56,068 bases of DNA from Lachnospiraceae bacterium (GTDB lineage Bacteria > Bacillota > Clostridia > Lachnospirales > Lachnospiraceae): positions 1 to 56,068 of the forward strand of contig JAFRYE010000015.1 in the NCBI GenBank assembly GCA_017441265.1, read 5' to 3'. This document shows positions 3,005 to 55,050 of the stretch, piece after piece. How positions within the stretch are numbered: position 1 is the first letter of the stretch; each line of letters starts with the position of its first letter. The position numbers and the translations under genes were made by a program. The notes beneath the pieces were generated by a model. That model was not told where the DNA came from. It saw only the letters and a list, made by a program, of their open reading frames with translations, and searched no databases.

Positions 3005-4195
3005 TTACCTCCCTGCCCGTAATTTCCCTACGATCTCCCGCAGTGCGGCGATGACCGCCTCGATCTCTGCGCGCGTCGTCTCCGGAGAGAGCGTCATGCG
3101 GACAGTGCCATTTTCGTACTCAACAGGAATGTGAAGCGCCTCGATGACATGGGATACCGTGCCGGAAGCCGAGGTGCATGCGGAGCCGCCGGAGCAGGCG
3201 ATGCCCGCCATATCGAGAAGAACGAGGACGGAGGCGGCCTCTACTCCGGAAAATGAAATGCTCACATTTCCGGGGAGCCGGCTTGTGCGGCTTCCGTTGA
3301 GGCGGGAATCGGGAATCTCATCAAGGATCCGGTCGATCATGGATGTCGAGAGGGCACGCATCCTTGCTCTGCTCTCCCGGAGTTCACGGCAGGAGGAAAT
3401 GAGCGCTGCGGCTGTTCCGACGATGCCGGGGACATTTTCCGTGCCCGCGCGCAAACGCATCTCCTGGGGACCGCCGTGCATCTGAGGAGCGATTTTGGTA
3501 CCCTCGCGGACGAACAGAAAGCCGGAGCCTTTCGGACCGCCGAATTTGTGTGAGGATGCCGCGAGCATCGTGATGCCGGCGAAGTCCTGGGATGTAACGC
3601 CCTGGGGTAATTTGCCGGCCCCCTCGGCGCTGCCTAAGGCGAACGGAATATGGCCGACCGCCTGCACAGCATCCGTGAACAGGGCGATGCCGCGCTCCTT
3701 TGCGAGCGCCGCGATCTCCGCGATCGGCTGAACGGTTCCGATCTCATTGTTCGCATACTGAACCGCGATCAGGATCGTATCGGGGCGGATTGCCGCAGCC
3801 ACCTGTTGCGGCGTGATCAGGCCCTCGCCGTCAACCGGCAGCACCGTCACCTCGGCGCTGCGGCCGCGAAGCCAGGCAAGGCTCTCGATGACGGCGTGAT
3901 GCTCGATGTTGGTTGTGATGATATGCCTGCCGCGCTCGCAGTTAGCTTCATAGAACCCTTTGATCGCAAGGTTGTCGCTCTCGGTGCCTCCGGACGTGAA
4001 CACGATCTCGTTCGGTTTGCACCACAGACACGTGGCGATATCTTCTCTCGCCTTCTGGATCGCTTTCTTGGCGGAAAGCCCGGGTGTGTGAACCGAGGAC
4101 GGGTTCCCGAATTGTTCCGCCATGTAGGGCATGGCTGCGGAAAGAGCTTCCGCCCGCGCCCGCATGGACGCCGCATTGTCAAGATAAATCGCCAT
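3005..4195 (-). CDS. Cysteine desulfurase, NifS/IscS family
   Basis: This 396-residue PLP enzyme takes sulfur from cysteine to form an enzyme persulfide that feeds Fe-S cluster or thio-cofactor synthesis. The fold-type I features are complete: HHAVIESL near residue 100, the cofactor aspartate in FTDAVQAVG (about 174), the Schiff-base lysine in SSHKFGGPKG (K217), RAGTENV near 250, and the loop GGSACTSAS with catalytic Cys340. The length and short active-site loop fit the NifS/IscS group and not SufS. A GAGG site precedes the ATG. No scaffold gene (IscU/NifU) or thiI lies next to it in the window, so the acceptor is unknown. It follows the XRE/membrane gene by 11 bases and may be co-transcribed with it. 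Confidence 0.93.
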   Translation of the reverse strand: MAIYLDNAASMRARAEALSAAMPYMAEQFGNPSSVHTPGLSAKKAIQKAREDIATCLWCKPNEIVFTSGGTESDNLAIKGFYEANCERGRHIITTNIEHHAVIESLAWLRGRSAEVTVLPVDGEGLITPQQVAAAIRPDTILIAVQYANNEIGTVQPIAEIAALAKERGIALFTDAVQAVGHIPFALGSAEGAGKLPQGVTSQDFAGITMLAASSHKFGGPKGSGFLFVREGTKIAPQMHGGPQEMRLRAGTENVPGIVGTAAALISSCRELRESRARMRALSTSMIDRILDEIPDSRLNGSRTSRLPGNVSISFSGVEAASVLVLLDMAGIACSGGSACTSASGTVSHVIEALHIPVEYENGTVRMTLSPETTRAEIEAVIAALREIVGKLRAGR

Positions 4196-4206
4196 TCTTA
4201 ACCTCG

Positions 4207-4911
4207 TTACGTATCATTTTCTCCGGTATCAAAGAGCCAGTCCATGGAGGAGATGATCAGCGGTATTCCGATGATCAAAGCCGACATCACGACGGCTCCC
4301 CACCCCAGTTCAAGCAGAAACATCAGCATAAGCGGAAGCAGCCCGATAAGCAGGATCAAGCTCCACCGGAACCTCCGAAGCAACTGCTTCTTCGCCTTTT
4401 CCGTCAGTTTCTCATACTCCTCCGGTCCGGACAGTTTATTTCGGCAGTTCATATAGTATACGATCAGGAAAATGAGTGCCGCCAGCCATACGCAAAAGCC
4501 GATCCCTTCCGACACCGCATACAAGGTCTCCGAAGTTCCCATCCCGTAGAAGAACGTGCGAACGACGCCGGCGCCGATCACGGAGCCGATGCAGATCAAC
4601 ACGGCCGCAGTAAAACGGAACAGCACGACTTCGATCGATTTCCGGACCTGCAATTCGGTTCGTCTGCCGCTCGATGTCGGGAGCTCGCCTTCCTCCGTGA
4701 TCGCCTTTTCCCCGCGAAGCAGTTCGTCCACCGTCACATCGAACGTATCGGCAATCACAGGAAGCAGGGATAGATCGGGAAATGTCTCATCGCGGTCCCA
4801 TCGGCTCACCGCCTTGTCCGAAACGCAAAGCCGGTCCGCAAGATTCTTTTGCGTCAGGCCGTTGGCTTTGCGAAGCGCAGTCAAAAAGGATCCGAAAGTT
4901 CTCTTTTCCAT
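4207..4911 (-). CDS. XRE-family regulator fused to a membrane domain (paralogue 1)
   Basis: The 234-residue protein has an N-terminal Cro/C1-type helix-turn-helix (about residues 7-62; GLTQKNLADRL ... SDKAVSRWDRD) and a C-terminal half with about four transmembrane segments. DNA binding is therefore expected at the inner face of the membrane. The start is fixed by GGGGAGG nine bases upstream. The next gene upstream (5018-6325) is a paralogue with nearly the same first 65 residues and a longer membrane part. The upstream region carries a palindrome (4991-5005) and a half-site (4953-4960) matching those before the paralogue, which suggests auto- or cross-regulation. The signal sensed by the membrane half is not evident. 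Confidence 0.8.
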   Translation of the reverse strand: MEKRTFGSFLTALRKANGLTQKNLADRLCVSDKAVSRWDRDETFPDLSLLPVIADTFDVTVDELLRGEKAITEEGELPTSSGRRTELQVRKSIEVVLFRFTAAVLICIGSVIGAGVVRTFFYGMGTSETLYAVSEGIGFCVWLAALIFLIVYYMNCRNKLSGPEEYEKLTEKAKKQLLRRFRWSLILLIGLLPLMLMFLLELGWGAVVMSALIIGIPLIISSMDWLFDTGENDT

Positions 4912-4952
4912 ACCAAAAACCTCCCCGTGTATTTTGACTGCATTCTACTGTC

Positions 4953-5005
4953 GCGAGAGAAAAAAGTCTATCTCAGCATTCGAAAACCTCTCTCATTTCA
5001 TGAGA
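4953..5005 (-). promoter_or_regulatory. Putative operator upstream of XRE paralogue 1
   Basis: The 15-bp perfect palindrome TCTCAT-TTC-ATGAGA (4991-5005) sits 30 bases from a GCGAGAGA half-site (4953-4960). The same arrangement with identical spacing is found before the paralogue. The sequence between them includes AAGTCTAT, conserved in both leaders and possibly part of the promoter. Confidence 0.5.
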
Positions 5006-5017
5006 ACATCCCGGTTT

Positions 5018-6325
5018 TTAGGCATTTTCCGAACTCTGAGGCCGATCCGCAGAAGCCTCGCTGCGCGCCCGGGCACGCCTGCGTTCCGCAACCAGGATCG
5101 CGCAATACAAAGCAGCAATACCGATCAGCAGGAATATCCAGATCCAAAATCCGATCTCGGCGCCGTTCTCGGTAAATGTACGGATCGGCAGCGCAGACGG
5201 ATTTCCCGCCGCCAGGACCACTTCAACATCGGTGTTTTGCGGGACGATGAAATCGGTCGACGTATCTCCGAATACAAACTTGCAGAGATCCCCCCGAAAG
5301 AAGGAATATCTATAGGAATAGTCCGCCGTAACATTCGCCTCTCCGTCAAACCAGGTTTGGCGCGAAACAACATTAACATCGGAAAACGGACGATACACAA
5401 CGCCGGGTTCCATATTGAATTCCTCGCTGCCCTTTTCTTGCAAATATTCCGTAAAACTATTCATGTTGAAGAACCATTTTCCGATGCCGAAATACGCTCC
5501 GTCGGTCACATCTCCGAGATAAAACACGATTCCCCACAAAGCTGCGAAAGCGACCGCAAGAATGATCATTTTCCGAACAAACCGGCGAAACTCCTCCTCG
5601 GAAGAGATGACTATGGACCGGAATCTGTGCACCGGCCGGATCAGGCACAATGCCGCAAGCACCGCAACGATTGCCAGGTAAGCCAGAAATCCGACACCGA
5701 TATCATCCGTTCGCGCGCTGTCGCTTCCGCTCAGCAAAATGATCAAAGCGGGTACCACGCCGATCAACGCCCATTTCTGCATCGTCCTGATCCGCGCTAT
5801 GCTTCGATCGACGATCTCCCCGCTCCCTTCGAGCCCCGTGAGACGCCGACGCAATGCGACAAAATACAAAACTATGGCGAGCACAGCCCCAAACCAAAGT
5901 ACATATCCCAGGAACAGGGCAATTGCGACCAGAATTTCTCCGGTTTTCTGATCCGACACTCCCCCGGAAAGCACCATTCCCAGGCATCCTAAAAATACAC
6001 ACCCTGCGGCTACGGCGATCAGCACGGTATATCGGAAAATGCCGCTCTCCGCGATATTCTTTACTTCCCTCTCCGAACGCTCCGACAATTCCCTTCGCGC
6101 GCCGCTCTCCGCGGTGCTGCGCTCACCTCGCAGCAGTTCGTCCGAAGTGACGCCGAAGATGTCGGCGATGATCGGGATCAGCGTCAGATCCGGGCAGTTC
6201 TCATCCCGCTCCCAGCGACTCACCGCCTTATCGGATACATTGAGCCGATCCGCAAGCTCCTTCTGCGTCATGCCGTTTGCCTTGCGCAGCGCAGTCAAAA
6301 ATGAACCAAGTGTTTTTTTCTCCAT
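5018..6325 (-). CDS. XRE-family regulator fused to a large membrane domain (paralogue 2)
   Basis: The 435-residue protein starts with a helix-turn-helix almost identical to that of paralogue 1 (GMTQKELADRL ... SDKAVSRWERD, about residues 7-62). A linker and about six membrane segments follow, with an extracytoplasmic loop (about residues 290-385, rich in aromatic and polar residues) before the last hydrophobic segment, and a basic C-terminus. The start follows GGGGAGG. The larger external loop compared with paralogue 1 could be a sensing region, which is inference. It is probably a tandem duplication followed by divergence; no enzyme or transporter it might control lies in the same operon except possibly the cysteine desulfurase downstream. 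Confidence 0.8.
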   Translation of the reverse strand: MEKKTLGSFLTALRKANGMTQKELADRLNVSDKAVSRWERDENCPDLTLIPIIADIFGVTSDELLRGERSTAESGARRELSERSEREVKNIAESGIFRYTVLIAVAAGCVFLGCLGMVLSGGVSDQKTGEILVAIALFLGYVLWFGAVLAIVLYFVALRRRLTGLEGSGEIVDRSIARIRTMQKWALIGVVPALIILLSGSDSARTDDIGVGFLAYLAIVAVLAALCLIRPVHRFRSIVISSEEEFRRFVRKMIILAVAFAALWGIVFYLGDVTDGAYFGIGKWFFNMNSFTEYLQEKGSEEFNMEPGVVYRPFSDVNVVSRQTWFDGEANVTADYSYRYSFFRGDLCKFVFGDTSTDFIVPQNTDVEVVLAAGNPSALPIRTFTENGAEIGFWIWIFLLIGIAALYCAILVAERRRARARSEASADRPQSSENA

Positions 6326-6365
6326 GAATCAACCTCCCCGTCGGTTTTGACTGCATTCTAAGTTT

Positions 6366-6418
6366 GCGAGAGAGAAAAGTCTATCCAGCCGTCCGACAAT
6401 TACTCTCGCAGCGCGAGA
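6366..6418 (-). promoter_or_regulatory. Putative operator upstream of XRE paralogue 2
   Basis: The perfect 15-bp palindrome TCTCGC-AGC-GCGAGA (6404-6418) and a GCGAGAGA half-site (6366-6373) lie 30 bases apart, as in paralogue 1. Half-site and palindrome share the GCGAGA core, consistent with one dimeric regulator binding both. Confidence 0.5.
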
Positions 6419-6530
6419 ATCGGCACGGTTTCAGTGGATCATACGGTCATTTTACTACATTTTCCGGAGCGCGTAAAGGAAATTGCGCTTCCGGAGCGCC
6501 CGGAAAACGTCTGAAAAACATGTCTCACAT

Positions 6531-6572
6531 AAAAAAACGTGTACCGTCGGGTTTCCCCTTCGGTACACGTTT
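6531..6572 (-). terminator. Rho-independent terminator after the solute-binding membrane protein
   Basis: A 12-bp perfect stem (6535-6546 with 6561-6572) and 14-base loop, followed on the minus strand by a run of seven T. It ends the transcript of the sigma/solute-binding pair. The rest of the 312-base gap 6326-6637 holds the XRE operator region and two GGAAAATG motifs (6458 and 6620). Confidence 0.85.
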
Positions 6573-6637
6573 ACTTCTACAGGAAAGACGAATCCTTGCG
6601 TTTGATCATCGTATTTCCCGGAAAATGCGGTATTCAA

Positions 6638-8185
6638 CTACTCTTCATGGAACGCTGCCATGGTTCCGACAAATGTCGCTCCGTCGATTGCTCTGCGATA
6701 CGCATCCTGAACCAGTCGGGTGTAGGTTACCACCTGCTCCATGTCATACGGGCACGAAAAATCGCTTACTCCGAGGCAATACGGGGAAAATGCATTTGCC
6801 TGCTGCGTCAATGCCGCAACGGAGCGGAACAGACTGCCGACTTCATTGTCATTGTAGTCAATCTCCCATGCGGGAAGGCTTACGCCTGCCAGATAACCGT
6901 ACTCGGAAAGCAGCTGACCGAGCTCCACGGCGTACAGCGCCGCAGTATCCTTTTTCGAGGATGCGTTCGGAACAAAGAGCGCATCCACCGTTCCGCCGAC
7001 AAACTGACCTGCACCGGCATTTTCACTGTCAAGCACCGGGAATTCATAAACCCTGATGTCGGCATTGCTGTTCTGAAGTTCAATGCAATCCCAGTCGCCG
7101 CTTACAAAGAACGCATACTCTCCGTTCTTCAGTCCGTTTTTGACCGTAAGGTTATCATAGGGAAGGTTCACAGAGTTCATCGAAAAATAACCTCTGCCGA
7201 TGAACTCTTCAAACAGATCCACCGCCCCTGCGATCTTATTGTTGCTCCAGACAGCCGTTCCGCCGGGGTAGGCATCCGCTGCAGCCGCAAGGCCGCCTGC
7301 TTTCACAAGGAACGTGCGAAGATACTCTTCAACGCACCAGGACGCTCCCATATCCGCCGTGCAACCGAACGGTGTGATTCCCTGCGCAAGAAGCGCGTCA
7401 CAGCATGCAACCAGATCCGCATACGTGGTCGGGACCTCATTATAACCGGCCGAGCGAAGCGCGTCCATGTTCACATACATCACGATCGCCGTCGTGGAAA
7501 CCGGCACACCGTACTTTCTTCCGTTCTTGCTGACGCTCTCGATCACGGCATTCGAAATCAGACCTTCATACGGCTGGTAAGCTCCGTCAAGGCAGTACAC
7601 CTTTCCGTCATCGATGAAACCGCGTAGAAAATCATATCCCCAGGAATCGATAATGTCCGGTGTTTCACCGCTGCTCATAGCCGATGCGATCTTATCCCGG
7701 TAAGCGAGGTTGTCCTCGGGATCATACACCACCTGAAGCGTGATATTCGGATATCTGCTCTGCATTTGTGCGATCGCCTGCTGGAACGCCGCATAATTCT
7801 CATGATTCTCGTTTACGGATGTCCACATGGTAAATACCGTTCCCGAAGGAAGCGCCGCGAGACCGGTTACGGTTGCGGTCGGTTCCGGCGTAACGCCCTC
7901 GGATGCCGGAGTCGATCCGCCTTTTCCTTTGCCTGACTGATTCTTCGAACCGAAGTGAACGGCTGCAACAATTCCGCCGATCATTGCAATACATACCAAT
8001 GCCGCTACGACACGCATTGCCCACACAAGCGCCTTCGAGGATTTGTTCCGTCCTTCATTTTTCGCCGCTTTCCCCCTGCGCGACGAACTCTTTGTTATTC
8101 GAAACATACTTTTCTCCTTTTTCTGTTGTTCATACTGTTCCTTTGCCTGCATTACTCTGCGGAACACTTCGTCATGATCTCTCAT
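6638..8185 (-). CDS. Membrane-anchored solute-binding-domain protein, candidate anti-sigma factor
   Basis: This 515-residue protein has a short basic cytoplasmic N-terminus (residues 1-50, opening DEVFRRVMQAKEQYEQ), one transmembrane helix (about 52-76), a Gly/Pro/Thr linker, and a large outer domain (about 115-515) of the extracellular solute-binding protein family 1 type found in sugar ABC transporters (FTMWTSVNENHENY; DKIASAMSSGETPDIID). It is not a lipoprotein: no signal peptidase II Cys motif is present. No ABC permease or ATPase gene is nearby. It starts 45 bases after the ECF sigma gene with its own GGAGG site. This order and topology match anti-sigma factors, so a role in sensing a sugar and releasing the sigma factor is proposed; this is inference. 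An orphan binding protein is the alternative. Confidence 0.7.
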   Translation of the reverse strand: MRDHDEVFRRVMQAKEQYEQQKKEKSMFRITKSSSRRGKAAKNEGRNKSSKALVWAMRVVAALVCIAMIGGIVAAVHFGSKNQSGKGKGGSTPASEGVTPEPTATVTGLAALPSGTVFTMWTSVNENHENYAAFQQAIAQMQSRYPNITLQVVYDPEDNLAYRDKIASAMSSGETPDIIDSWGYDFLRGFIDDGKVYCLDGAYQPYEGLISNAVIESVSKNGRKYGVPVSTTAIVMYVNMDALRSAGYNEVPTTYADLVACCDALLAQGITPFGCTADMGASWCVEEYLRTFLVKAGGLAAAADAYPGGTAVWSNNKIAGAVDLFEEFIGRGYFSMNSVNLPYDNLTVKNGLKNGEYAFFVSGDWDCIELQNSNADIRVYEFPVLDSENAGAGQFVGGTVDALFVPNASSKKDTAALYAVELGQLLSEYGYLAGVSLPAWEIDYNDNEVGSLFRSVAALTQQANAFSPYCLGVSDFSCPYDMEQVVTYTRLVQDAYRRAIDGATFVGTMAAFHEE

Positions 8186-8230
8186 TTCATTCCTCCGACT
8201 TTTCTAAGGTATCGGTCTTCCCGAGTCCTC

Positions 8231-8767: not shown

Positions 8768-8902
8768 TGAGGCTCCCTCCTTTTTTGCTCTTCTGTCCTT
8801 TAGACGGAAAATGAACGTTTTTTTCGCCGCATTTTCCGAAACATTTTTCACATATTTTTTTCAGCGTTTTACAATAATTTGTTATTTTATCCGATTACAT
8901 TA

Positions 8903-8931
8903 AGTATACAGCGCAGAAACCGACGGTGCAA
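8903..8931 (-). promoter_or_regulatory. Sigma-A promoter of the ECF sigma operon
   Basis: On the minus strand TTGCAC (8926-8931) and TATACT (8903-8908) are separated by 17 bases. This places the start site near 8896, about 130 bases before the chosen ATG. Basal transcription of the sigma gene therefore need not depend on itself. Confidence 0.7.
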
Positions 8932-10481: not shown

Positions 10482-11900
10482 CTACACGCCGAACACAGCC
10501 ATGAACACGCCGGCCGCGACAGCGGTACCGATAACGCCCGCAACGTTCGGGCCCATCGCATGCATGAGGAGGAAGTTTGTAGGATCCTCTTCTGCACCGA
10601 CCTTCTGCGAAACACGCGCTGCCATAGGCACTGCGGAAACGCCGGCCGAACCGATCAGCGGATTGATCTTTCCGTGCGTAGCCTTGCACATGATCTTGCC
10701 GAACAATACACCGCCCGCGGTACCGACTGCAAATGCGATCAGACCGAGTGCAACGATCTTCAGCGTATCAAGCTTCAGGAACGCCTCGGCGCTTGTCGTC
10801 GCACCTACGGACGTACCGAGGATGATAACTACGATGTACATCATCGCATTCGAAGCCGTCTCCTGCAACTGGCGAACAACGCCGGACTCACGGAAAATGT
10901 TTCCTAACATCAGGCAGCCGACCAACGGAGCCGTATCCGGAAGGAGCGCTACTACCACAAGCGTAACGATGATAGGGAAAAGGATCTTCTCCAGTTTGGA
11001 AACCGGACGAAGCTGCTCCATCTTGATTTTGCGCTCTTTCTCCGTCGTGAGCAGTCTCATGATCGGAGGCTGAATGATCGGAACCAGCGACATGTAAGAG
11101 TAAGCTGCTACGGCAATGGCACCCATGTACTCCGTCTGACCGAGTTTCCCGGCCAGGAAGATTGACGTCGGGCCGTCAGCACCTCCGATGATGGAGATCG
11201 CTGCTGCCGCCTTGTCGTTGAATCCGAGTAAAATAGCCGACAGGTAAGCAAAGAAAATACCGAGCTGTGCCGCAGCTCCCAACAGGAAGCTCTTCGGGTT
11301 TGCGATCAACGGCCCGAAGTCCGTCATCGCGCCGACGCCCATGAAGATCAGGCACGGCAGAACCGCCCACTCATCCAGCTGGAAGAAGTAATACAACAGA
11401 CCGCCGGCCTGTTTGGTATCTTCGCACCGAGTAGCGATCGGACAATAATAGTTCTGACACACGCCGTTAATCTTGCTGTATATCAACAGCGCTTCACCGT
11501 CACACTCGTATGCAACCAAAACGCTCGTCATGCGAAGCTCATCCTCCGTCAGATTGGACATGTCATGTCCGTCTTCCGGATCAAGGATGTGCTTTATCAC
11601 TTTGTTGCTGTCATAGTTAAAGAACGTGACCTCTTCGTTCTTGATCTCCACAACCTTCTCGTTGTTCGCGTCGTAGTAAGTATACACGTGATCGATCGGC
11701 TCAGCCATGATCGACGGATACAGGTTTACGAGGAGCATACCGAAAGAGATCGGAACCAGAAGAAGCGGTTCATAATCCTTGGCAATCGCCAAATACATGA
11801 AAAACAAGGCTACGCCGACCATCAGCAGATTGCCCCACGAAAGGGAAGCAAACGCCGTGGACTTCGCCAGGTTTCCCAATGTATCCAAAATGTACTGCAT
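10482..11900 (-). CDS. oadB: Na+-translocating decarboxylase beta subunit (OadB/MmdB/GcdB family)
   Basis: This integral membrane protein decarboxylates carboxybiotin and couples the reaction to Na+ export. It has about nine to ten membrane segments, FMGVGAMTDFGPLIANP, the signature SIIGGADGPTSIFL with the key aspartate (D242, equivalent to the Na+-site Asp of the family), and YSYMSLVPIIQPPIMRLL. At 472 residues it is longer than the usual 375-435. The extra length is a hydrophilic stretch at about residues 65-165 between the second and third membrane segments, with several Cys and acidic residues. It is the fourth gene of the operon, between the biotin carrier and the 5S-type carboxyltransferase. 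Confidence 0.93.
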   Translation of the reverse strand: MQYILDTLGNLAKSTAFASLSWGNLLMVGVALFFMYLAIAKDYEPLLLVPISFGMLLVNLYPSIMAEPIDHVYTYYDANNEKVVEIKNEEVTFFNYDSNKVIKHILDPEDGHDMSNLTEDELRMTSVLVAYECDGEALLIYSKINGVCQNYYCPIATRCEDTKQAGGLLYYFFQLDEWAVLPCLIFMGVGAMTDFGPLIANPKSFLLGAAAQLGIFFAYLSAILLGFNDKAAAAISIIGGADGPTSIFLAGKLGQTEYMGAIAVAAYSYMSLVPIIQPPIMRLLTTEKERKIKMEQLRPVSKLEKILFPIIVTLVVVALLPDTAPLVGCLMLGNIFRESGVVRQLQETASNAMMYIVVIILGTSVGATTSAEAFLKLDTLKIVALGLIAFAVGTAGGVLFGKIMCKATHGKINPLIGSAGVSAVPMAARVSQKVGAEEDPTNFLLMHAMGPNVAGVIGTAVAAGVFMAVFGV

Positions 11901-11936: not shown

Positions 11937-12299
11937 TTAATTCATTGTTGCAAGCACTTCACCGGGTTCAACGCTCTGGCCGACGGAAACGTTGATGCTC
12001 GCAACGGTACCGTCCTGCGGAGCAACGATATCATTTTCCATCTTCATGGCCTCAAGAACCACGAGGACATCGCCCTTCTTTACGGAAGCGCCGACATTTG
12101 CTACAACCTTGAGGATCTTACCGATCATAGGTGCCGCAACCGTTACGCTGCCCTGTGCTCCAGCCGGAGCCGCCTTCTTCGGAGCTGCTTTGGGAGCAGC
12201 CTTCGGAGCTGCGGAAGCAACCGGTGCGCCTTCTGCGCCGGTCTCTTCTACGCTTACTTCATAAACATTGCCGTTGACCGTAATTGTATAGTTTTTCAT
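11937..12299 (-). CDS. Biotin carboxyl carrier protein of the Na+ decarboxylase
   Basis: The 120-residue protein has a short N-terminal beta segment, an Ala/Pro/Lys-rich flexible linker (about residues 27-50) and a C-terminal biotinyl domain (51-120) with the biotinylation site EAMKMEND (K86). It corresponds to MmdC/GcdC or transcarboxylase 1.3S and carries CO2 from a soluble carboxyltransferase to the membrane beta subunit. The ATG at 12299 follows AGGAGG; an upstream in-frame start would overlap the gamma gene and adds ten unsupported residues. The linker is typical of a swinging arm. Confidence 0.92.
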   Translation of the reverse strand: MKNYTITVNGNVYEVSVEETGAEGAPVASAAPKAAPKAAPKKAAPAGAQGSVTVAAPMIGKILKVVANVGASVKKGDVLVVLEAMKMENDIVAPQDGTVASINVSVGQSVEPGEVLATMN

Positions 12300-16231: not shown

Positions 16232-16467
16232 TCCTAAAATCGATGAAAACGCAAAAACTTTTGTACAGTCACATCATACTCGAAGCGCCCCGGAAAGTCC
16301 ATTCGCAGGATAGCCGAAAATGAACCTCTTTTTTCTCGCAAAAGCGTTTCTTCTGGGCCTTCTTCGCCTGTCGTCATCGTCATTATGTCACATCGCGAGA
16401 CCCATTATTGGTACTTTTCGACAAATTGTCTTCATTTTCCGTAAAATGAGCTTTCCACGCAAAAGGA

Positions 16468-18527: not shown

Positions 18528-19754
18528 TCAGTTTTCATCCTCGCCGCCGACAGGCTCAAACAATGCCTCGACGAAGGAATCCGGATCGAATTTCTGCATG
18601 TCTTCGAGTTTCTCGCCGACGCCGATGTACTTGACCGGAATACCGAGTTCCTTCTGGATCGCGATGGCGATACCGCCCTTGGCCGTTCCGTCCAGCTTGG
18701 TGATGACGATGCCGGTGATGTCCGCGATCTCGTTGAACTCCCGCGCCTGAACAAGGGCGTTCTGTCCCGTGGTTCCGTCGAGCACTACGAAGGTTTCACG
18801 ATGTGCCTGCGGGTATTCCCGGTCGATAACTCGGTTCATTTTCCCGAGTTCTTCCATGAGATTCTTCTTGTTGTGGAGACGTCCCGCCGTGTCGCAGATC
18901 AGGACGTCGACCTTGCGGGCTTTGGCTGCCGTCACGGCGTCAAATACGACTGCCGCCGGGTCCGCCCCCTCCTTGGCCGAAATGATCTCACATCCGGCGC
19001 GGTGCGACCACTCCGTCAGCTGTTCCGTCGCAGCGGCGCGGAACGTGTCCGCAGCGGCGAGCATCACGCGCTTGCCTTCGGCCTTCAGCGATCCCGCGAT
19101 CTTGCCAGCGGTCGTCGTCTTGCCGACGCCGTTCACGCCGACCATCATGATGACGGAAGGCTGATTTTCAAACTCGTAAGCATCGTCCGGAACCGCCATC
19201 TGCTCCTTTATGGTGTCCATCAGAAGCTGCTGGCACTCGGCCGGCTCTTTGATGTGCTGTTCCTTCACCTTCTCGCGAAGGCCGTCGAGAATGGCTCCGG
19301 TCGTCGAAACGCCGATGTCCGCCATGATAAGGATCTCCTCGAGTTCCTCATAGAAGTCCTCGTCGATCTTGCTCCCCCGGAACAGGGAGCGAAGACCGCT
19401 TGCAAGACTGCTTCTCGTCTTGCTCATACCGGCGAAGAGGCGTGCGAAAAAGCCTTTCTTCTTCGGTGCTTTCTCTGCGGATTCCTCATCGTCCGCCGGC
19501 TCGTCCTCCTCGGACTCTTCGGGTTCGTCGGACTCTTCGGACTCCTCAGCCTCGTCGGAAAGATCGGTCTCATCGGTCTCCGATGCTTCCCTTGCCTCCG
19601 AGGCAAACTCTTCCGCCGCGTCGATCACCGTCCCGGCATCCGTCTCCGCCTCATCGGGAAATTCAACGCCTTCCTCTAAGGATTCCTCCAAAGCTTCCGC
19701 GGACGTCTCCTCGAGTTCCTCGGCGTTCTTTTTCTTTTTTTTCCAAAAAAACAT
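18528..19754 (-). CDS. ftsY: Signal recognition particle receptor FtsY
   Basis: The SRP receptor GTPase docks ribosome-SRP complexes at the membrane for co-translational insertion. The 408-residue form chosen here has an N-terminal region (about 1-110) that opens MFFWKKKKKN and is then strongly acidic (Glu/Asp/Ser-rich), and a C-terminal NG domain with GVNGVGKTTTAGK, DTFRAAATEQL, CDTAGRLHNKKNLMEEL and TKLDGTAKGG. The ATG at 19754 lies ten bases from GGAGG; a TTG three codons upstream is too close to that site. It starts 17 bases after smc, a common Firmicutes pairing. Confidence 0.95.
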   Translation of the reverse strand: MFFWKKKKKNAEELEETSAEALEESLEEGVEFPDEAETDAGTVIDAAEEFASEAREASETDETDLSDEAEESEESDEPEESEEDEPADDEESAEKAPKKKGFFARLFAGMSKTRSSLASGLRSLFRGSKIDEDFYEELEEILIMADIGVSTTGAILDGLREKVKEQHIKEPAECQQLLMDTIKEQMAVPDDAYEFENQPSVIMMVGVNGVGKTTTAGKIAGSLKAEGKRVMLAAADTFRAAATEQLTEWSHRAGCEIISAKEGADPAAVVFDAVTAAKARKVDVLICDTAGRLHNKKNLMEELGKMNRVIDREYPQAHRETFVVLDGTTGQNALVQAREFNEIADITGIVITKLDGTAKGGIAIAIQKELGIPVKYIGVGEKLEDMQKFDPDSFVEALFEPVGGEDEN

Positions 19755-19771: not shown

Positions 19772-22700
19772 TTATTTGTCCAGTTCATTTTCGATCAGGT
19801 TGACCGAAACCAGCGTCGACACGCCCTTTTCCTGCATGGTGATGCCGTACAGCGCCTCGGCCGCCGCCATCGTGCCGCGACGGTGCGTGATCACAATGAA
19901 CTGCGTGTCGGACGCGAGTTTGTGCAGATACTGCGCAAACCGGCCGACGTTCGAATCGTCGAGTGCCGCCTCGATCTCATCCAGAAGACAGAACGGCGAC
20001 GGCTTCAGATCCAGAATCGCGAACAAAAGCGAAATTGCCGTGAGCGCTTTCTCACCGCCGGAGAGCTGCAGCATGTTCTGCAGTTTCTTGCCGGGCGGCT
20101 GAACGTTGATCAAAATGCCGGCCTCGAGAATGTCCTCGCCCTCGCTGAGCGCAAGAGATGCTTTTCCGCCGCCGAACAGCTCGCGGAACACGCGGTCAAA
20201 GCGAACTTTCAACTCCTCGAAGGTCGCGCTGAACTGTCGGCGCATCTCGGCATCGAGAGTCTCGATGATCCCCAAGAGCGTCTTCTCCGCCGCCAGGACA
20301 TCGTCGCGCTGACCCGTCAGGAACGCATAACGCTCCTTCGTCTCACGGTACTCCTCGATGGCGTTGACATTGACGTTGCCGAGATCGCGGATCTTATTTT
20401 TCAACTCGTAGACGGCGCGGCGGTTGAGCACCGCGTTGTCGTAAGCTTCATTGCGGAATTCGCACGCTTCCGTGTACGTCAGTTCGTACTCTTCCCACAT
20501 GTAGCGGGTTTGATTTTCCAGCTGCTCTTCCATCTTTTCCTTCTGGCTCTGCAACCGGAATTGTTCCTTGTCCAAGGATGTCATCAGTTTCGAGAGCGAC
20601 TCCCGCTTCTCGAAAAATGCCCGATTCTGTCTCGTGATCTCCTCCGCGCGCGACGAAAGTTCCGCAATCCTGCTCTCGGCTTCGGCGATCTCGCGGAAAA
20701 TGGTTTTCTGCAGTTCGGCGTGCTCCTTGGACTGTGCCTGCTTGTCCGCGATCTCCGCGTTCGCGGCCTCGCTCTCCTTGGTGACCGAGGCGAGTTCGCG
20801 CTGCATCTGGACGAGTTCGCGGGTTAAGCGCTCACCGGAATCACGTTGGTACTCCACGCTCTGCAGCAGGGCATTGTACTCCGTGAGAGTACGGACGGCC
20901 TCGGCGCTCGCCGTGTCCTCCTGCCCCCGGAGCGTTTCCATCTCGGCGCGGAGCGTCTCGACTCTGGCGTCATTGCTTCGGCTCTCCTCCTCGTTGGCTG
21001 CGATCTGCTCCGTGAGATCCCGGTTCTTCTCTTTGATCTTCTCGCTCTCCGCCTCGGCTTCAACAAGTTCCTTGCGAAGCGCTTCGCGCATGTCAAGGAA
21101 TCCGCCGTTTTGCTCGCGGATGTGCTCGAGATTCATCTTGGCTGTATTTTGCGCGACCATCTGCTCCTGCAGTTTGGTTCGCAGGATTTCGAGAGTATTC
21201 CGCACGGTCTCGCGCTCTTTGCGGTACTTCTGCACCGTGCGCTCGCACTCCTCCGCGGCGGTCCTGCAAGCCTCGTACTCGCGCTGGGCCTCCTCGGCCT
21301 CACGGCGACGAAGCAGTAGGTTGCCGGAATTCTTGAACGCACCGCCGGAAATCGCGCCGCCCGGGGCGAACAGCTCGCCGTCGAGGGTCACGATGCGGAG
21401 TTTCTGTTTGTATTTGCGGCCGATGGCGGCTGCCCGGTCGAAGCGGTCCACCACCAGGAATCGTCCCAGCAGATAGTCCACGGCTTCGCGGTAGATTTCG
21501 TCCGTCGTCACCAGTTCGGAGGCGACGCCGATCACACCTTTTTCCGCCAGCACTTCCTTCTCGAATTCGTCCTTTTTCGCACGGATCTCGCGGAGCGGCA
21601 GAAACGTTGCGCGTCCCAGCCGGTTGTCCTTCAAAAACTCGATCAATATCTTCGCGGTGTCCGTCGAATCTGTCACGATATTCTGGATATTGCCGCCCAG
21701 CGCGGTCTCAATTGCGGTCTCATAGCCGTCGCCCACGGTGATGATGTCCGCGACAACGCCATGAATGCCGGGGATTTCTTTCTTCTTCTCCATCACCTTG
21801 CGGACGGTTCCCGCATACCCTTCGTAGCGCTCCGTGATGTTGCGGAGTGCCTCGTAGCGGGACGATGCCGCGATGGCTTTCTTTCTGCGGTCCTCGCGCA
21901 AAACGTCGGCGTCCGTGATCGACGCCGTCAGTTCGCGGACGCGGTCTTCTTTTGCCTTTACGTCCTTCGCCACCTTCTCCGCGGCGTCCGAAGCTCTCTT
22001 ATACTCGGCCTCGGCTTCCTCCACCTGACGGTTCGCCTCGTCGGCCTCCGTCTTGAAGCGCAGAAGTTTTGCGTTGATCTCCGCGCGGTTGATCGCATAT
22101 TGCTCGAGCAGCGTCTTGTTGCGGGCAAGTTCCGTCTGCAGATTGGTGTTTGTCTGCATCGCCGCAAGCTGCGCGTTGCGAAGCGTTGCCTCCTCCGCGA
22201 TCCTGCTCTCAAGTTCCTGCTTCATGGCTCCGAGGTTATTCTCGGCCGCCGTCTTCGCGTCCGACAGGGATGCCAGTTTCGCGTCAAATTCCGCCATGCG
22301 CTCGCCGAAATGACCGAGTTCTTCCTTCCGCTGCGCGATCTCCGCAGTCAAAGCCTCGATGCGCTCGTCACTCTGCGCTTTTTGTCTGGACAGCGTAGCG
22401 ATCTGCTCAGTTAACAGATTCTGCTCGCCGCTGCATTTTTCGGATTCGAGCTTCTTCTGCGTCTGGGCTTCCTTCGAACCGGCGATGGTCTCCCGAAGCG
22501 TCTCAAGCTCATTTAGCAAACGGTCGTAATCGTCTTTGGCGGTCTCGAATTCCGTCGTCGTGCGGGCGAGGTCCTCCGATACCGTTGTGAGTTTGTCCTC
22601 AAACTCCTTCATGGTGACGGAGCTCTTCTCGTACTCCATCAGAAATTGATTGATCTCGCGCTCTTTGAGTTCGTCACGCAGTTTCAAATACTCGCGAGCC

Positions 22701-37763: not shown

Positions 37764-39257
37764 TTACGAGAACATGGAGAGTCCTCTCTCAATCCATCGG
37801 AAGATCGGCTGCGATCCCATGCCGAGCACGAGGTTGGCAACGATGAACGCCAGCGCAGCGAACCACATCGACGCACCCGCCGCATACCGCTTCTTCTCCG
37901 CATTTTCGATTGGCGTATAGATGTTGATCACCTGACCGATGAAATACATCGCATTTAAGATCGTACTGATCGCAAGCGCGATGAGCGTAACCAGCATCTT
38001 CACTTTTGATCCGGCGCCGAACGCCGCCTGCGCAAAGTACACCTTGGACGTAAAGCCCGCCAGCAGCGGGATGCCTACCATGGACAGCGAGCCCACGGCA
38101 AATCCGATCCCGGCGATCCGATTTCGGTACGCCGATCCGCGCAAAAGACGGTAGTTCGCATTTTCCCACGTTCCCTGCGTCAGACCGTTTAGCGACACAA
38201 ACAGCAGGGATTTTCCGGCCGCATGCGCCAGAATATGGAAGATTGACGCGATTATGCCGGCTTCCGTGTTCAGACCGAATCCCATGTAGATGTATCCGAT
38301 CTGCGCAACCGAGGAAAATGCGATCATACGGCTGACGTCGGTCTGCTGGATCGCGCTCACGGAGCCGAAGATCATGCCCGCGATGCCGAACACAAACAAA
38401 ACGTCATCAACCTGGATCGTATGTATGATCTCCGCGCCGATGACGCGGTAGAAAAACTTGATCAGCAGGAAAATGTATCCCTTCGAGACCAAACTGGACA
38501 GGATCGCACTGGATGCGCAGGTGGAGTACCCGTAGGCGTCCGGAAGCCAGGCGTGGAACGGGAACAGCGCCGATTTGATGGCGATACCGACGCAGAACAG
38601 ACCGACGGCAACCGTCAACGGCTCCGTGTACGTGCCCTTCTGAACGATCTCAACGATCGACTCATGCATCTGCTCCATCAAAAGGTGTCCGGTAATCCCG
38701 TACAGTATGGACAGCGAAATCAGGACAAGACCGGAACCGAGCAGGGACATGATCATGTATTTGATCGCCGCCAAAAGGTTTCGTCCCCAGCCGCGGATCA
38801 TGATCAGACCGCAGGCAGAGATCGTGTTGATCTCGATGAACACATAGCCCGTGAACATATCATTGGTGTAGATGAGCGCAAGCAGAGAACTTAAGAGAAG
38901 GTTGATCATGATATAGAACAGATTCTGCTTCTCTTCCGGAATGTCAACCTTCGTGAAGCGGTGTCCGCCGACTAAGGACAGCACCATGATCAGACAGAAG
39001 AACGATGCCGTCACCGCCTCCAGGATTCCCACGCGGATCTCATTGCCGAACGGTGCGGGAAACGCGCCCATCGTATACGTAAACGATTCTCCCGTCGACA
39101 GCACGTAAACAAGTGTCGCAACCGACATCAGTCCCGACGCTACCACTACCGTCCAGTTGAGCAGTCTGGCTTTTTTGCCCGAAAGTACCGAGGACACAGG
39201 CCCCGCTACCATCGGCATCCAGATGCTGAAGAAGGGAAAATTGCGAATGAAATCCAT
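37764..39257 (-). CDS. MrpD-like antiporter subunit (first of four)
   Basis: The 497-residue protein carries the conserved glutamate in VFIEINTISACGLIM and lysine in GIAIKSALFPFHAWLPDAYGYSTCASSAILSSLVSKG. It follows the MrpC/NuoK-like gene directly, the position of mrpD in canonical mrp operons, so it is the best candidate for the true MrpD counterpart. The start has GGGAGG upstream. Confidence 0.88.
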   Translation of the reverse strand: MDFIRNFPFFSIWMPMVAGPVSSVLSGKKARLLNWTVVVASGLMSVATLVYVLSTGESFTYTMGAFPAPFGNEIRVGILEAVTASFFCLIMVLSLVGGHRFTKVDIPEEKQNLFYIMINLLLSSLLALIYTNDMFTGYVFIEINTISACGLIMIRGWGRNLLAAIKYMIMSLLGSGLVLISLSILYGITGHLLMEQMHESIVEIVQKGTYTEPLTVAVGLFCVGIAIKSALFPFHAWLPDAYGYSTCASSAILSSLVSKGYIFLLIKFFYRVIGAEIIHTIQVDDVLFVFGIAGMIFGSVSAIQQTDVSRMIAFSSVAQIGYIYMGFGLNTEAGIIASIFHILAHAAGKSLLFVSLNGLTQGTWENANYRLLRGSAYRNRIAGIGFAVGSLSMVGIPLLAGFTSKVYFAQAAFGAGSKVKMLVTLIALAISTILNAMYFIGQVINIYTPIENAEKKRYAAGASMWFAALAFIVANLVLGMGSQPIFRWIERGLSMFS

Positions 39258-39666: not shown

Positions 39667-40680
39667 CTAAAAGCTTCCTCTTCGGAACAATGCGTAAAAT
39701 GCGTACATCGTGCAGGCTACCTCAAGCCCCACCAGCAGGTTGATCGGCAGGATCAGCCCCGAGCTCAGAATCTTCCCGGGCGTCCCCAGCGGAATCATCG
39801 GGTCGATGCCGTTCGCCCCGGTGAAGAGGTAGTACGCGATAATCAGCGCGTACAGGCACAGCGAGCCGACCTTGATCACATCGTACACGGTCTCGTCGAA
39901 AAACCGCTGCGTCTTGCGGAATCCAAACGCCGAATTGTACAGAATAAGCCCCGCTCCCATGACCGCACCGCCGGAGAAACCGCCTCCCGGCGAGAGATGT
40001 CCGTTCAAAAGGATATACAGTCCGAACAGGAAAATGAGCGGCACAACGATCCGCGCGATCGTCTGCAGGATCACGTCCTCATCCTGCTCCGCATCCACGT
40101 CTTCCTCGTCCTCTCTCTTCTTTTTCTTCACAAGCTTCTTGCCGCGCCCTTCGGCGACGGAAAGTTTCGTGCTCTCCCGGTGAAGAAGCAGGATCATGAC
40201 CGAACATGCCGCGATAAACAGCACATTGGTCTCGCCGAACGTATCGAACGCACGGTATTTTAAGATCATGCCGGTCACGAGGTTGACGGCTCCGGTCTCC
40301 TCCACGCCGTCCGCGAGATATCGCTCCGCGACCTCGTTGTTCGTCGGCGTCTCATCGCTTCCGAACCGCGGCATAAACGCCACATTCATGATCAGCATCG
40401 CGATGATCATGATACACATCAACGCGGCCAGCACGTAATAAATCTTGCGGAACACCCGAACGCCGGACATCTGCGCGAAACGCTTTGCGTCCTCGTACGG
40501 GTCGGTCTCCTTCAGCTCGATGTAGTTGGCATTTTCCGTCTTTTCGGTCTCTTCCGCCCTCTCCACATTGCGGATCCACTCTTCGGTGTGATCCTCCTCG
40601 GGGAGCGGCGTATCGCCCTTGACAAATGTCAAAAACTTCCACAGAGGAGATTTCTCATAGTCTTTACGCAGTTTGCTCAT
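39667..40680 (-). CDS. MbhE-MrpB fusion subunit of the cation antiporter
   Basis: The 337-residue protein has a hydrophilic charged N-terminus (about 1-75), an MbhE/MrpA-C-like part (about 76-175; VEETGAVNLVTGMILKYRAFDTFGETNVLFIAA), a Lys- then Glu/Asp-rich linker (about 180-205), and an MrpB domain (about 205-335; LNGHLSPGGGFSGGAVMGAGLIL). In Pyrococcus Mbh these are separate proteins; in Mrp the MbhE part belongs to MrpA. The gene overlaps the MbhD-like gene by four bases. Confidence 0.85.
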   Translation of the reverse strand: MSKLRKDYEKSPLWKFLTFVKGDTPLPEEDHTEEWIRNVERAEETEKTENANYIELKETDPYEDAKRFAQMSGVRVFRKIYYVLAALMCIMIIAMLIMNVAFMPRFGSDETPTNNEVAERYLADGVEETGAVNLVTGMILKYRAFDTFGETNVLFIAACSVMILLLHRESTKLSVAEGRGKKLVKKKKREDEEDVDAEQDEDVILQTIARIVVPLIFLFGLYILLNGHLSPGGGFSGGAVMGAGLILYNSAFGFRKTQRFFDETVYDVIKVGSLCLYALIIAYYLFTGANGIDPMIPLGTPGKILSSGLILPINLLVGLEVACTMYAFYALFRRGSF

Positions 40681-45349: not shown

Positions 45350-45373
45350 GGAAAATGCCGTCCGGCATTTTCC
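45350..45373. repeat. Perfect inverted pair of GGAAAATGCCG between ftsW and ftsQ
   Basis: GGAAAATGCCG and CGGCATTTTCC are separated by two bases, forming an 11-bp perfect hairpin that reaches the ftsW stop codon. Both arms contain the overrepresented GGAAAATG octamer. There is no T-tract. Confidence 0.9.
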
Positions 45374-46920: not shown

Positions 46921-46977
46921 GCCGTCCCTCTCTTTCCTGTCTTTTCCAAATAGGATCGATCATTTTTCGGAAAATGA

Positions 46978-51068: not shown

Positions 51069-51097
51069 AGTATACATGGGCTTTTGGGAAAATGCAA
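51069..51097 (-). promoter_or_regulatory. Sigma-A promoter of the division cluster
   Basis: On the minus strand TTGCAT (51092-51097) and TATACT (51069-51074) with a 17-base spacer. A GGAAAATG motif (51087-51094) overlaps the -35 end of the spacer. Confidence 0.75.
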
Positions 51098-51156: not shown

Positions 51157-51228
51157 AAACGGCATTTTCCGCAAATTCAAACGTATGTTCGAGAACATAT
51201 GTTTGTTTTTATGCAGAAAATGCCGTTT
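51157..51228 (-). terminator. Complex terminator downstream of lgt with nested hairpins
   Basis: Outer arms of 13 bp (51157-51169 with 51216-51228) enclose an inner hairpin with 13-bp arms and one mismatch (51178-51190 with 51193-51205, 2-base loop). On the minus strand the outer stem is followed by TTCTTTTG, extending a T-run. The outer arm carries a GGAAAATGCCG copy (51163-51170 on the minus strand); the inner part resembles paired SOS boxes (GAACATATGTTT). Confidence 0.7.
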
Positions 51229-53321: not shown

Positions 53322-53415
53322 ACCTTGTGATTCTCCTTGTCTGTCCGTTGATTTCTATTTTCCGCAAAAGAGGCCTCCGCGGACAATCTCCCGCGTCGGC
53401 CCTTGATAGTCTTTG

Positions 53416-54093
53416 TTACGACTGAGCACTCAGGATCTCCATAAATTTCTTCGTGTTCGACGCGATATCGCCGCGGAACACCGCGCTTCCGGTCACGATG
53501 GTGTCCGCTCCGGCCGCGATCAGATAGGCAACGTTGTCGAGATTGACGCCGCCGTCCACCTCAACCCGCGGAATTCCCTCACCCGTCCGAGCGCCGAGAA
53601 CCTCTTCCATCATCGCGCGAAGTTCGCGGATCTTATCGTAGGTTCCCTCGATCAGTTTCTGTCCGCCGAACCCCGGATTGACCGACATGATCAGGATCAG
53701 ATCAACTCTCGAGAGGAACGGGCGAAGTACCGACACCGGCGTCTCCGGACGGATCGTGATTCCGACCTTGACTCCGGTCTCGCGAATTGCCGCAAGCGTC
53801 TGTGCCACATCCTGGCAGGCTTCATAGTGCACCGTGATCAGGTCGGCTCCGCATCTCGCAAACTCCCCGACATAGCGGATTGGCTCACGGATCATCAAAT
53901 GCACATCCAAAAACAGATCGGTTTCCTTCCGAATGGACTCGAGAACCGGCATTCCGAAACTGATGCTCGGCACAAACAGGCCGTCCATAACATCAAAATG
54001 AAGAGCCTGTGCCCCGCAGTCCCGGACACAGTGGATCTGTTCGCCGAGGCGGTTGAAATCCGCCGCCAGAATGGAAGGCGACAACCAATTCAT
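53416..54093 (-). CDS. rpe: Ribulose-phosphate 3-epimerase
   Basis: The 225-residue TIM-barrel enzyme interconverts ribulose 5-phosphate and xylulose 5-phosphate. Motifs: LSPSILAADFNRL, HFDVMDGLFVPSISFG, LDVHLMIREP, LIMSVNPGFGGQKLI and VEVDGGVNLDN. GGAGG lies before the ATG. Its place after rsgA and the PASTA kinase is the standard Firmicutes order. Confidence 0.96.
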   Translation of the reverse strand: MNWLSPSILAADFNRLGEQIHCVRDCGAQALHFDVMDGLFVPSISFGMPVLESIRKETDLFLDVHLMIREPIRYVGEFARCGADLITVHYEACQDVAQTLAAIRETGVKVGITIRPETPVSVLRPFLSRVDLILIMSVNPGFGGQKLIEGTYDKIRELRAMMEEVLGARTGEGIPRVEVDGGVNLDNVAYLIAAGADTIVTGSAVFRGDIASNTKKFMEILSAQS

Positions 54094-54135
54094 GGCAAAT
54101 CCTCCTTGGGAGACGTCCGCGTCCCCCGATCATAC

Positions 54136-55050
54136 TTAAACGCCGTCGCTGTGCTTCGGTTTTCGGGAATAGATGATCCTTGTCCCCGAAAGCTCCTCGT
54201 ACAGGAGGCAATAACTGTCATATCTCTCTTTCGCGATGGTCCCGTTTTCGACCGCCGCGCGCACCGCGCATTCCGGCTCCCGCCGATGAATGCAGTCCGG
54301 ATAACGGCATTGTCCGGAAAATGAAGCAAACTCCGGATAGTAATCCGCCAGCTCATCCGGCGTGATATCCGGCAGATACAGTGAGCTGAATCCCGGCGTG
54401 TCACACAAGAACGTATTGCTCTCGATCTGGAACAGCTGCGTGTGCCGCGTGGTCTGCTTCCCGCGAAGGATCTTCCTGCTGAGGCCGCCCACCTCCATGT
54501 TGGCATCCGGATGCAGGGCGTTCATGATCGTTGATTTTCCGACGCCGGACGGTCCCGCCAGCACCGTGGTCTTCCCGCGAAGAGCCTCCCTCAGCCGGTC
54601 TACCGATCCCGGTTTGCTTGCCTGCGTGACGAACACTCCCGCCGCGCATTCCCGGTAGATCGACGCAAGCCGCTCCGCCTCCGACGCATCCGCAAGATCC
54701 TGCTTGTTGAAGCAGATCAGCACCGGAACATCCTGCCGCTTCATCAGGATCAGAAAACGATCCAACAGATTCGGCAGAAAATCGGGTTCCCGGATGGCGC
54801 AGACGATCAGCGCCTGATCAACATTGGCTACCGCCGGCCGAACCAGCGCATTCTTCCGGGGCAGGATCTCCTCGATATTGCCCGCGCCGGTCTCGTCCAC
54901 GGTGAGCGTCACATCATCCCCGATCAGCGGAGGTGTCTTGCGATACCGCAGTATTCCTTTGGCGCGGCAGACCACGATCCCGAGTCCTTCGACGTACGTT
55001 TCGTAGTTCCCGCCGACGCCTTTCACTATCTTCCCTTGATACGAATCCAT
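54136..55050 (-). CDS. rsgA: Ribosome small-subunit maturation GTPase RsgA
   Basis: The 304-residue circularly permuted GTPase acts in late 30S assembly. An N-terminal OB domain (about 1-65) is followed by G4 ICFNKQDLAD, G1 GPSGVGKSTIMNAL and G3 CDTPGFSS, in the permuted order, and a zinc-binding C-terminal domain with CRYPDCIHRREPECAV. The ATG at 55050 is preferred over a TTG at 55062; the ribosome binding site is weak in both cases. It starts 15 bases after the kinase gene. Confidence 0.94.
   Translation of the reverse strand: MDSYQGKIVKGVGGNYETYVEGLGIVVCRAKGILRYRKTPPLIGDDVTLTVDETGAGNIEEILPRKNALVRPAVANVDQALIVCAIREPDFLPNLLDRFLILMKRQDVPVLICFNKQDLADASEAERLASIYRECAAGVFVTQASKPGSVDRLREALRGKTTVLAGPSGVGKSTIMNALHPDANMEVGGLSRKILRGKQTTRHTQLFQIESNTFLCDTPGFSSLYLPDITPDELADYYPEFASFSGQCRYPDCIHRREPECAVRAAVENGTIAKERYDSYCLLYEELSGTRIIYSRKPKHSDGV

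Follow-up and report, generated by a model that had tools for sequence, protein, structure and literature searches.

Why does the octamer GGAAAATG recur so densely on contig JAFRYE010000015.1 of a Lachnospiraceae bacterium (assembly GCA_017441265.1), and what might it do there? In the stretch that we analysed, positions 1 to 56,068 of the forward strand (56,068 nucleotides, hereafter the window), it occurs 36 times, and we think it probable, from the comparative analysis set out below, that a genus of Lachnospiraceae has a DNA uptake sequence with GGAAAATG as its core. Dinucleotide shuffling of the window yields 2.7 copies (standard deviation 1.75, maximum 8 in 100 shuffles), and GGAAAATG is the most over-represented 8-mer under an order-1 Markov model, with 36 copies against 2.5. 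The form CGGAAAATG makes up 20 of the 36. A sequence-only reading had reported 36 copies, 19 plus and 17 minus, between 3248 and 54323, and our recount is identical. Its estimate of 20-30 times the number expected from base composition holds for that null (about 1.35 expected); the excess is 13-fold over dinucleotides and 8-fold at order 3 (379-kb sample).

The window is representative of its own genome in GGAAAATG content. That genome (2.585 Mb in 79 contigs, 97% complete, 4.35% contamination) holds 1,684 copies, 881 on the plus and 803 on the minus strand, while the reversed control word occurs 37 times. Two outcomes had been named as arguing against a signal, a genome-wide count near the Markov expectation and a count explained by codon pairs in one frame; the order-3 excess persists, and the codon-pair explanation fails because a synonymous-codon null is exceeded in six frames. 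A simple custom dicodon caller found 351 genes in 416,005 bases of the genome, and of the 260 copies in this sample 196 are genic, 59 intergenic and 5 on an edge, a density of 1.31 per kb between genes against 0.53 within them. The quarter of copies proposed to be intergenic is thus recovered. When synonymous codons are shuffled over all called genes, keeping proteins and codon usage (100 shuffles), the genic copies number 19.7 +- 3.9 (maximum 31), so the observed 196 are a ten-fold excess. It extends to all three sense frames (11, 21 and 66 observed against 1.5, 3.3 and 8.1) and all three antisense frames (8, 39 and 51 against 1.6, 1.1 and 4.1). Spacing is close to random (exponential) with a mean of 1,475 bases. 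Could the motif arise merely from codon usage, base composition, terminators or a mobile repeat? Some copies do come from codon pairs like GAA-AAT, sense frame 2 being the fullest with 66 of 196, and some copies form hairpins. Codon bias and base composition are nevertheless rejected as the source by the excess over the codon-aware and composition nulls, and so is coincidence with start codons, since only 5 of 260 copies contain an ATG at which a called gene starts. A mobile element with conserved flanks is rejected too, as the flanks of GGAAAATG are weak. We regard this explanation as extremely improbable.

The exact matches to GGAAAATG on the two strands of the window are as follows.

3248..3255, plus strand, GGAAAATG site
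3433..3440, minus strand, GGAAAATG site
4467..4474, plus strand, GGAAAATG site
5023..5030, minus strand, GGAAAATG site
5475..5482, minus strand, GGAAAATG site
5567..5574, minus strand, GGAAAATG site
6034..6041, plus strand, GGAAAATG site
6458..6465, minus strand, GGAAAATG site
6620..6627, plus strand, GGAAAATG site
6785..6792, plus strand, GGAAAATG site
8806..8813, plus strand, GGAAAATG site, arm 1 of inverted pair with 8830
8830..8837, minus strand, GGAAAATG site, arm 2 of inverted pair with 8806
10892..10899, plus strand, GGAAAATG site
12032..12039, minus strand, GGAAAATG site
16433..16440, minus strand, GGAAAATG site
18837..18844, minus strand, GGAAAATG site
20695..20702, plus strand, GGAAAATG site within smc
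23393..23400, minus strand, GGAAAATG site
25382..25389, minus strand, GGAAAATG site
27951..27958, minus strand, GGAAAATG site
28797..28804, plus strand, GGAAAATG site
30908..30915, plus strand, GGAAAATG site
32541..32548, minus strand, GGAAAATG site
33249..33256, plus strand, GGAAAATG site
36187..36194, plus strand, GGAAAATG site
38159..38166, minus strand, GGAAAATG site
38313..38320, plus strand, GGAAAATG site
38468..38475, plus strand, GGAAAATG site
40029..40036, plus strand, GGAAAATG site
40530..40537, minus strand, GGAAAATG site
45350..45357, plus strand, GGAAAATG site, arm 1 of exact intergenic hairpin 45350-45373
45366..45373, minus strand, GGAAAATG site, arm 2 of exact hairpin 45350-45373
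46969..46976, plus strand, GGAAAATG site, inverted pair with one-mismatch form at 46961-46968
51087..51094, plus strand, GGAAAATG site
51163..51170, minus strand, GGAAAATG site, outer arm of imperfect hairpin ending near 51228
54316..54323, plus strand, GGAAAATG site

Strand-polar recombination or segregation motifs, Chi or the FtsK-orienting polar sequences (KOPS), deserve mention because Chi sites are over-represented and species-specific. Polarity was tested by gene strand and overall, and is rejected by both: genic copies divide into 98 sense and 98 antisense, and the overall difference of 881 to 803 is not significant (p = 0.06). All 47 genes called between 3005 and 56064 of the window lie on the minus strand, yet its copies divide 19 to 17. 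The proposal that strand symmetry speaks against Chi and KOPS is therefore borne out, and a polar motif is very improbable. The minus-strand genes include smc and a cell-wall and division cluster (mraW, a spoVD-like penicillin-binding protein, the FtsW/RodA family and ftsZ). Ribosomal protein S1 is fused to IspH at 25472-27553, and 16508-18259 encodes a protein with TIGR02543 (Listeria/Bacteroides) repeats. The three hairpins that had been named (45350-45373, 46957-46978, 51157-51228) are all present as inverted pairs, the last as an imperfect minus-plus pair enclosing another hairpin. In the 416-kb sample, exact copies between genes have 22 opposite-strand neighbours where 8.6 are expected (10 plus-minus and 12 minus-plus), and genic copies have 19 where 12.4 are expected; same-strand neighbours show no excess. 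A neighbour here has at most one mismatch and lies 8-35 bases away, and pairs of exact copies count from both sides. The link between motif and hairpins is real but weak.

What does the recognized word look like? T stands at -3 in 42% of the 260 copies, C precedes the word at -1 in 64%, and +8 is A or C in 77%; CGGAAAATG, with 166 copies against 13.6 from the order-3 model (12-fold, 416 kb), is the centre of a degenerate motif. Around it, changes are over-represented at position 0 (T 7.5-fold, G 5.2-fold, A 3.8-fold), position 2 (T 7.6-fold, A 6.6-fold, C 2.8-fold) and position 8 (A 5.2-fold, C 2.3-fold, T 2.1-fold), while those at positions 1 and 4-7 are near or below expectation, save two at 2.2-2.4-fold. 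This profile is one of graded recognition, as by a DNA-binding protein. A methylation mark or restriction-related self label, for instance the site of a genus-specific methyltransferase, would also deplete prophages through self/non-self labelling, and some enzymes do methylate non-palindromic words of such length. An enzyme site is all-or-none, however, whereas one-mismatch variants are enriched here by grades (CGAAAAATG 6.7-fold, CGTAAAATG 7.5-fold, CGGAAAATA 5.3-fold), and restriction sites are as a rule avoided rather than multiplied. Such a label strikes us as improbable.

Is the signal shared by relatives, as it should be possible to see in sister genomes? The genus set (g1) comprises 22 genomes including that of the window, and the other 21 each hold 221-1,763 copies of GGAAAATG, with reversed controls of 10-99. 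Order-3 enrichment, computed without the pilus slices of the window's genome and of other clade-A members and without most prophage slices of G005, is 8.3-fold in the window's genome, 8.5-fold in G005 and 6.6-fold in the other slices of clade A; with pilus slices included, clade A has 116 copies against 18.9. It is 4.0-5.5-fold in clade B and 4.3-fold in G012. In the samples of three members the excess is absent or nearly so (G018 0.9-fold, G006 1.5-fold, G016 1.5-1.6-fold). The codon-aware null gives 87 against 8.5 in G005 and 107 against 23.0 in clade B, and in the three members without signal 12 against 9.3 (G018), 18 against 11.6 (G006) and 14 against 9.2 (G016).

Within the genus the word changes with the clade. 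Clade A uses CGGAAAATG, with TTCGGAAAAT at 14-20-fold, and clade B uses GG[AC]AAATG[TC]G. Its hallmark GGAAAATGTG reaches 54-fold in G001, 45-fold in G008, 42-fold in G019, 42-fold in G013 (3 copies), 28-fold in G017 and 14-fold in G004, but only 6-12-fold in clade A; the G012 and G016 samples hold 0 copies, and in G006 and G018 enrichment is 4-5-fold on 2-3 copies. GGCAAATGTG rises to 47-fold in G008. The dialect of G012 is GAAAATGCGG(C), with AAATGCGGC at 14.5-fold, GAAAATGCG at 11-fold and TGAAAATGC at 10-fold, against at most 3.7-, 4.7- and 2.2-fold elsewhere. The same division appears in whole-genome counts, where GGAAAATGTG amounts to 3.5-7.7% of GGAAAATG in 11 clade-A genomes, to 15-28% in seven clade-B-like genomes and to 3.7-7.2% in the other four, and AAATGCGGC numbers 463 in G012 against 26-80 in the 21 others. 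The dialects share a core, G-n-AAATG. A related word, GGCAAATGC, is also enriched, 5.9-7.8-fold in clade A and likewise in clade B. A PilB-PilT-PilC-PilD tree supports clades A, B and a third group (G006, G018, G016) at 100 each; the third group is placed with A at a support of 84, the outgroup being very distant. Clade membership rests on SMC identity for G003, G010, G014 and G013 and on words for G020 and G021; G012, G020 and G021 stand outside the tree. If the tree is right, G006, G018 and G016 are one group that most simply lost the signal. An unbiased word search in these three genomes gave no tag-like word of another kind. The G006 samples (L129, L141, L162, L175-L180) contain several 10-mers in 17-32 copies, for example round CCCCGTGTAT, which are probably clustered regularly interspaced short palindromic repeat (CRISPR) arrays or gene repeats.

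Foreign DNA behaves differently. A phage portal (PF04860) occurs in one of the 22 genomes, G005, at two places, one of them checked against PHROGs; prophages of this portal type look rare in the genus. The prophage stretches, whose borders were set by eye at the joint drop of G+C and copies, carry 3 copies in 45 kb and 2 in 25 kb, where the adjoining contig carries 32 in 55 kb and 20 in 35 kb (in total 5 in 70 kb against 52 in 90 kb). On these two stretches of one genome, G005, the motif is depleted in phage DNA.

Is there machinery that could read such a tag? The window's genome encodes a type IV pilus with PilT, and ComEA, ComEC and DprA; the com genes that had been proposed as a check are found in nearly every genus member. 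The pilus operon (G000:C30, L123) comprises pilB (1953-3650), pilT (3736-4800), pilC (4856-6067), two short pilins (6174-6650, 6792-7220), pilD (7255-8031), pilM (8178-9965), a family-less gene in the place of pilN/O, and prepilins at 10883-11581, 13547-14044 and 14057-14956. All 13 members that are at least 95% complete have five prepilins with the N-methylation motif. The PilT family exceeds its cut-off in 22 of 22, in five prepilin-less members through a second, non-operon copy or a fragment, and pilT is 91-99% identical across the genus. ComEA passes its cut-off in all but G017, which falls just short of it (21 of 22), ComEC is found in 20 of 22 (two incomplete genomes are without it), and DprA in 20 of 22, the exceptions being G016 (80% complete) and G009. 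comEC is split over two frames at G016:C63:24535-25331 and G017:C57:53707-54488, and G016 thus combines no signal, a split comEC and no DprA match. The prepilin at L123:13547-14044 has a basic soluble part (isoelectric point 9.6, charge +6.8; -0.1 to +6.9 in 13 genus orthologues), and this minor pilin is a candidate receptor, offered from its sequence features as a lead only. The last pilin of the G016 operon (L134:3370-4206) differs from its orthologues in an unusual, strongly basic C-terminus, which may be another lesion.

Where is the motif missing? The longest motif-free stretch of the 416-kb sample, 13.6 kb, runs from pilT to the end of the pilus operon, and in the rest of the sample each of 425 overlapping 13-kb windows holds at least 3 copies. 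In six clade-A genomes the operon has 6 copies against 44.4 expected from genome density (P = 6e-13 on the assumption of independent copies, which orthologous operons do not entirely satisfy); the highly conserved pilB-pilT-pilC has 1 against 13.9 and the operon flanks 10 against 18.1. Five clade-B genomes and G016 have 3 against 21.4, and three B-type words in the five clade-B operons total 9 against 40. These expectations use rounded genome sizes. G006 and G018 are outside the sums, as are G007, whose operon is divided between two contigs, and members in which no operon was found. Chance alone gives about 0.4-1 per 19 kb for the operon under an order-2 model, so the desert lies near chance level, not below it. 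G+C is lower in the operon (0.50), but a 20-kb slice of C22 at 0.515 has 0.90 per kb, the highest among slices of at least 10 kb. The near-tag-free operon spans L123:1953-14953 and the orthologues L125-L128, L130-L133, L135 and L137. Diversification, which accompanies few DNA uptake sequences (DUS) in Neisseria, as far as the available part of the source goes (PMC2397512), is a possible cause, though pilT is so highly conserved. Selection against tags is another possibility, since tags would let broken alleles from non-transformable donors enter competent cells and overwrite the intact genes, with no way back. comEC was considered as a second desert and is not convincing (0 copies in the window's genome; 0, 0, 2 and 1 in four clade-A relatives).

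Several observations weigh against an uptake sequence. That the pilus operon should be untagged in tagged genomes was unexpected. Most machinery genes are widespread in signal-free relatives and are therefore necessary at most. G006 and G018 lack the signal despite open-frame ComEC, ComEA and DprA, G017 keeps it with a split comEC, and G009 is strongly tagged though DprA was not found in this 95% complete genome. No prepilin was found in five of the 22 genus members (79-91% complete), one of which, G014, has pilB together with a truncated pilT, as where a contig breaks off. Profiles run on L123:13547-14044 matched only the generic pilin N-terminus, and its assignment to a named family of DNA-binding pilins failed. 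Terminator-type pairing between genes is weak, as the 22 neighbours against 8.6 indicate, whereas in Neisseria the tag lies at 54-55% of likely operon ends in the rows available (PMC1852404). Finally, sites are seldom kept in place. In the smc region the window's sites are identical in 7 of 55 alignments to nine clade-A relatives (controls, composition-matched 8-mers, 16.9%), in 6 of 41 to six clade-B relatives (controls 8.3%) and in 0 of 9 to G006 (controls 5.2%), and mean mismatches exceed those of controls (3.1 against 2.0 in A, 3.2 against 2.6 in B, 4.1 against 2.8 in G006). Conservation of DUS between neisserial genomes is described in the part of the source available (PMC2397512), but the species compared here, at about 70% (A) and 60% (B) SMC identity, are far more diverged. 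Low identity with extra mismatches implies that the tags occupy positions where change is tolerated and that most are gained and lost over time, their density being kept rather than their place. Such turnover argues against site-by-site regulatory roles and fits mutation with biased uptake; USS, the uptake signal sequences of Pasteurellaceae, were shown not to be insertions, according to the accessible part of that study (PMC1626085).

Could a cytoplasmic chromosomal protein account for the same pattern? A densely repeated site for nucleoid organization, segregation or occlusion, kept by selection on density, would fit the near-random spacing on both strands, the low prophage density and the turnover of positions. 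Against this, the dialects shift within one genus and three sampled members are signal-free, and sites of nucleoid or segregation proteins tend to be conserved beyond a genus; the desert in the pilus operon would also be left without a reason. We judge such a site unlikely, though it is the alternative that we take most seriously. The lack of strand bias, the six-frame excess, the intergenic enrichment, the dialects, the prophage scarcity and the pilus and Com machinery support the original proposal of an uptake, modification or protein-binding signal, and among such readings an uptake sequence fits better than Chi, KOPS, a restriction site or codon usage.

How would an uptake sequence work here? 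From the statistics and distribution of the motif, its dialects and the machinery genes we infer binding, biased uptake, a receptor and a drive, which might be connected as follows. A surface type IV pilin or another pilus protein would bind (T)nCGGAAAATG in extracellular double-stranded DNA, and PilT-driven retraction would hand the tagged DNA to ComEA. ComEC would import one strand, which DprA and RecA would recombine. Tags would then build up in the inherited genome irrespective of strand and frame, wherever a change is tolerated, and not in phages, because tagged DNA enters preferentially and recombination spreads tag-creating mutations. Drift of the receptor would drag the tag along and give rise to dialects, and loss of competence would let the tag decay.

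Does the trait reach beyond the genus? Loci from 77 other records (L012-L088, mostly titled Lachnospiraceae) lie closer to expectation, with 211 copies against 151 from an order-2 model, and in most of 397 family genomes, two of them of genus g1, the count is about 1-6 times the reversed control, as judged by eye. Outliers are G134 (1,616 against 82), G253 (714 against 15), G337 (793 against 64), G194 (1,353 against 161) and two members of one genus, G118 (783 against 41) and G421 (729 against 55). G253, G118/G421, G337 and G194 have GGAAAATG at 8 to 48 times the reversed control; the G253 sample is 11 kb, about 40% N. In 62 kb of G134 there are 22 copies against 4.2 +- 1.9 under the codon-aware null, with each of six frames above expectation, some on one copy, so the trait may extend past the genus. 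In G134, a member of another Lachnospiraceae genus (L244, L245, L248-L250), A precedes GGAAAATG more often than C, possibly a further dialect.

What would this mean? On balance we lean towards a third self-recognition uptake system that evolved independently, the first of a Gram-positive (Bacillota) lineage. It would have three or more dialects in one genus, perhaps a presence in more genera, and a pilus operon kept tag-free. Meeting such a system a third time, and in cells that lack an outer membrane, would indicate that the trait evolves repeatedly. Natural transformation would then be expected among those Lachnospiraceae that are mainly known from metagenomes, and tagging DNA might help in practice to transform gut and rumen Clostridia. 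A clade with both dialects and absences would let one ask why bacteria prefer kin DNA, and the tag-free pilus operon amounts to a testable statement on how transformation genes escape replacement. The available part of a 2025 paper states that uptake sequences are known only in Neisseriaceae and Pasteurellaceae. Our literature search, to which preprints and most subscription papers were out of scope, gave among the matches listed no uptake sequence in Gram-positives, Clostridia or Lachnospiraceae.

How does the motif compare with known systems? With DUS and USS it shares abundance, the lack of strand or frame preference, phage depletion, dialects with a shared core and the accompanying machinery. 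Published DUS and USS counts are 927-1,965 per genome in the rows available (PMC1852404), and 1,684 copies in 2.585 Mb match them in number and density. The DUS of Neisseriaceae, GCCGTCTGAA, with ComP as receptor, has about 10 bases and about 1,900 copies in N. meningitidis and N. gonorrhoeae; in the parts of the sources available it resembles our motif in its dialects round a conserved core (CTG there, G-n-AAATG here), its permissive positions and its absence from recently acquired genes (PMC3630211, PMC2397512, PMC1852404). The USS of Pasteurellaceae, AAGTGCGGT, has a 9-mer core with 927-1,516 exact copies in the rows available, and the available text likewise gives it two subclade types and a weaker form in H. 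ducreyi, which has competence-gene defects (PMC1626085, PMC1852404). Our motif differs from DUS in its unrelated word and phylum, far fewer hairpins, perhaps the tag-free pilus operon, sites not kept in place between the compared species, an uptake role that is only proposed, and a receptor that is only a candidate, no ComP homologue having been identified. It differs from USS in word and phylum and in its flanks, which are extended and AT-rich in USS and here add only T at -3, C at -1 and A or C at +8. DUS or USS as such are ruled out by the different word in a Lachnospiraceae genome. HIP1 of cyanobacteria is a very abundant palindromic octamer of undetermined role; the motif described here is likewise a very abundant octamer, but it is non-palindromic and varies by dialect inside one genus.

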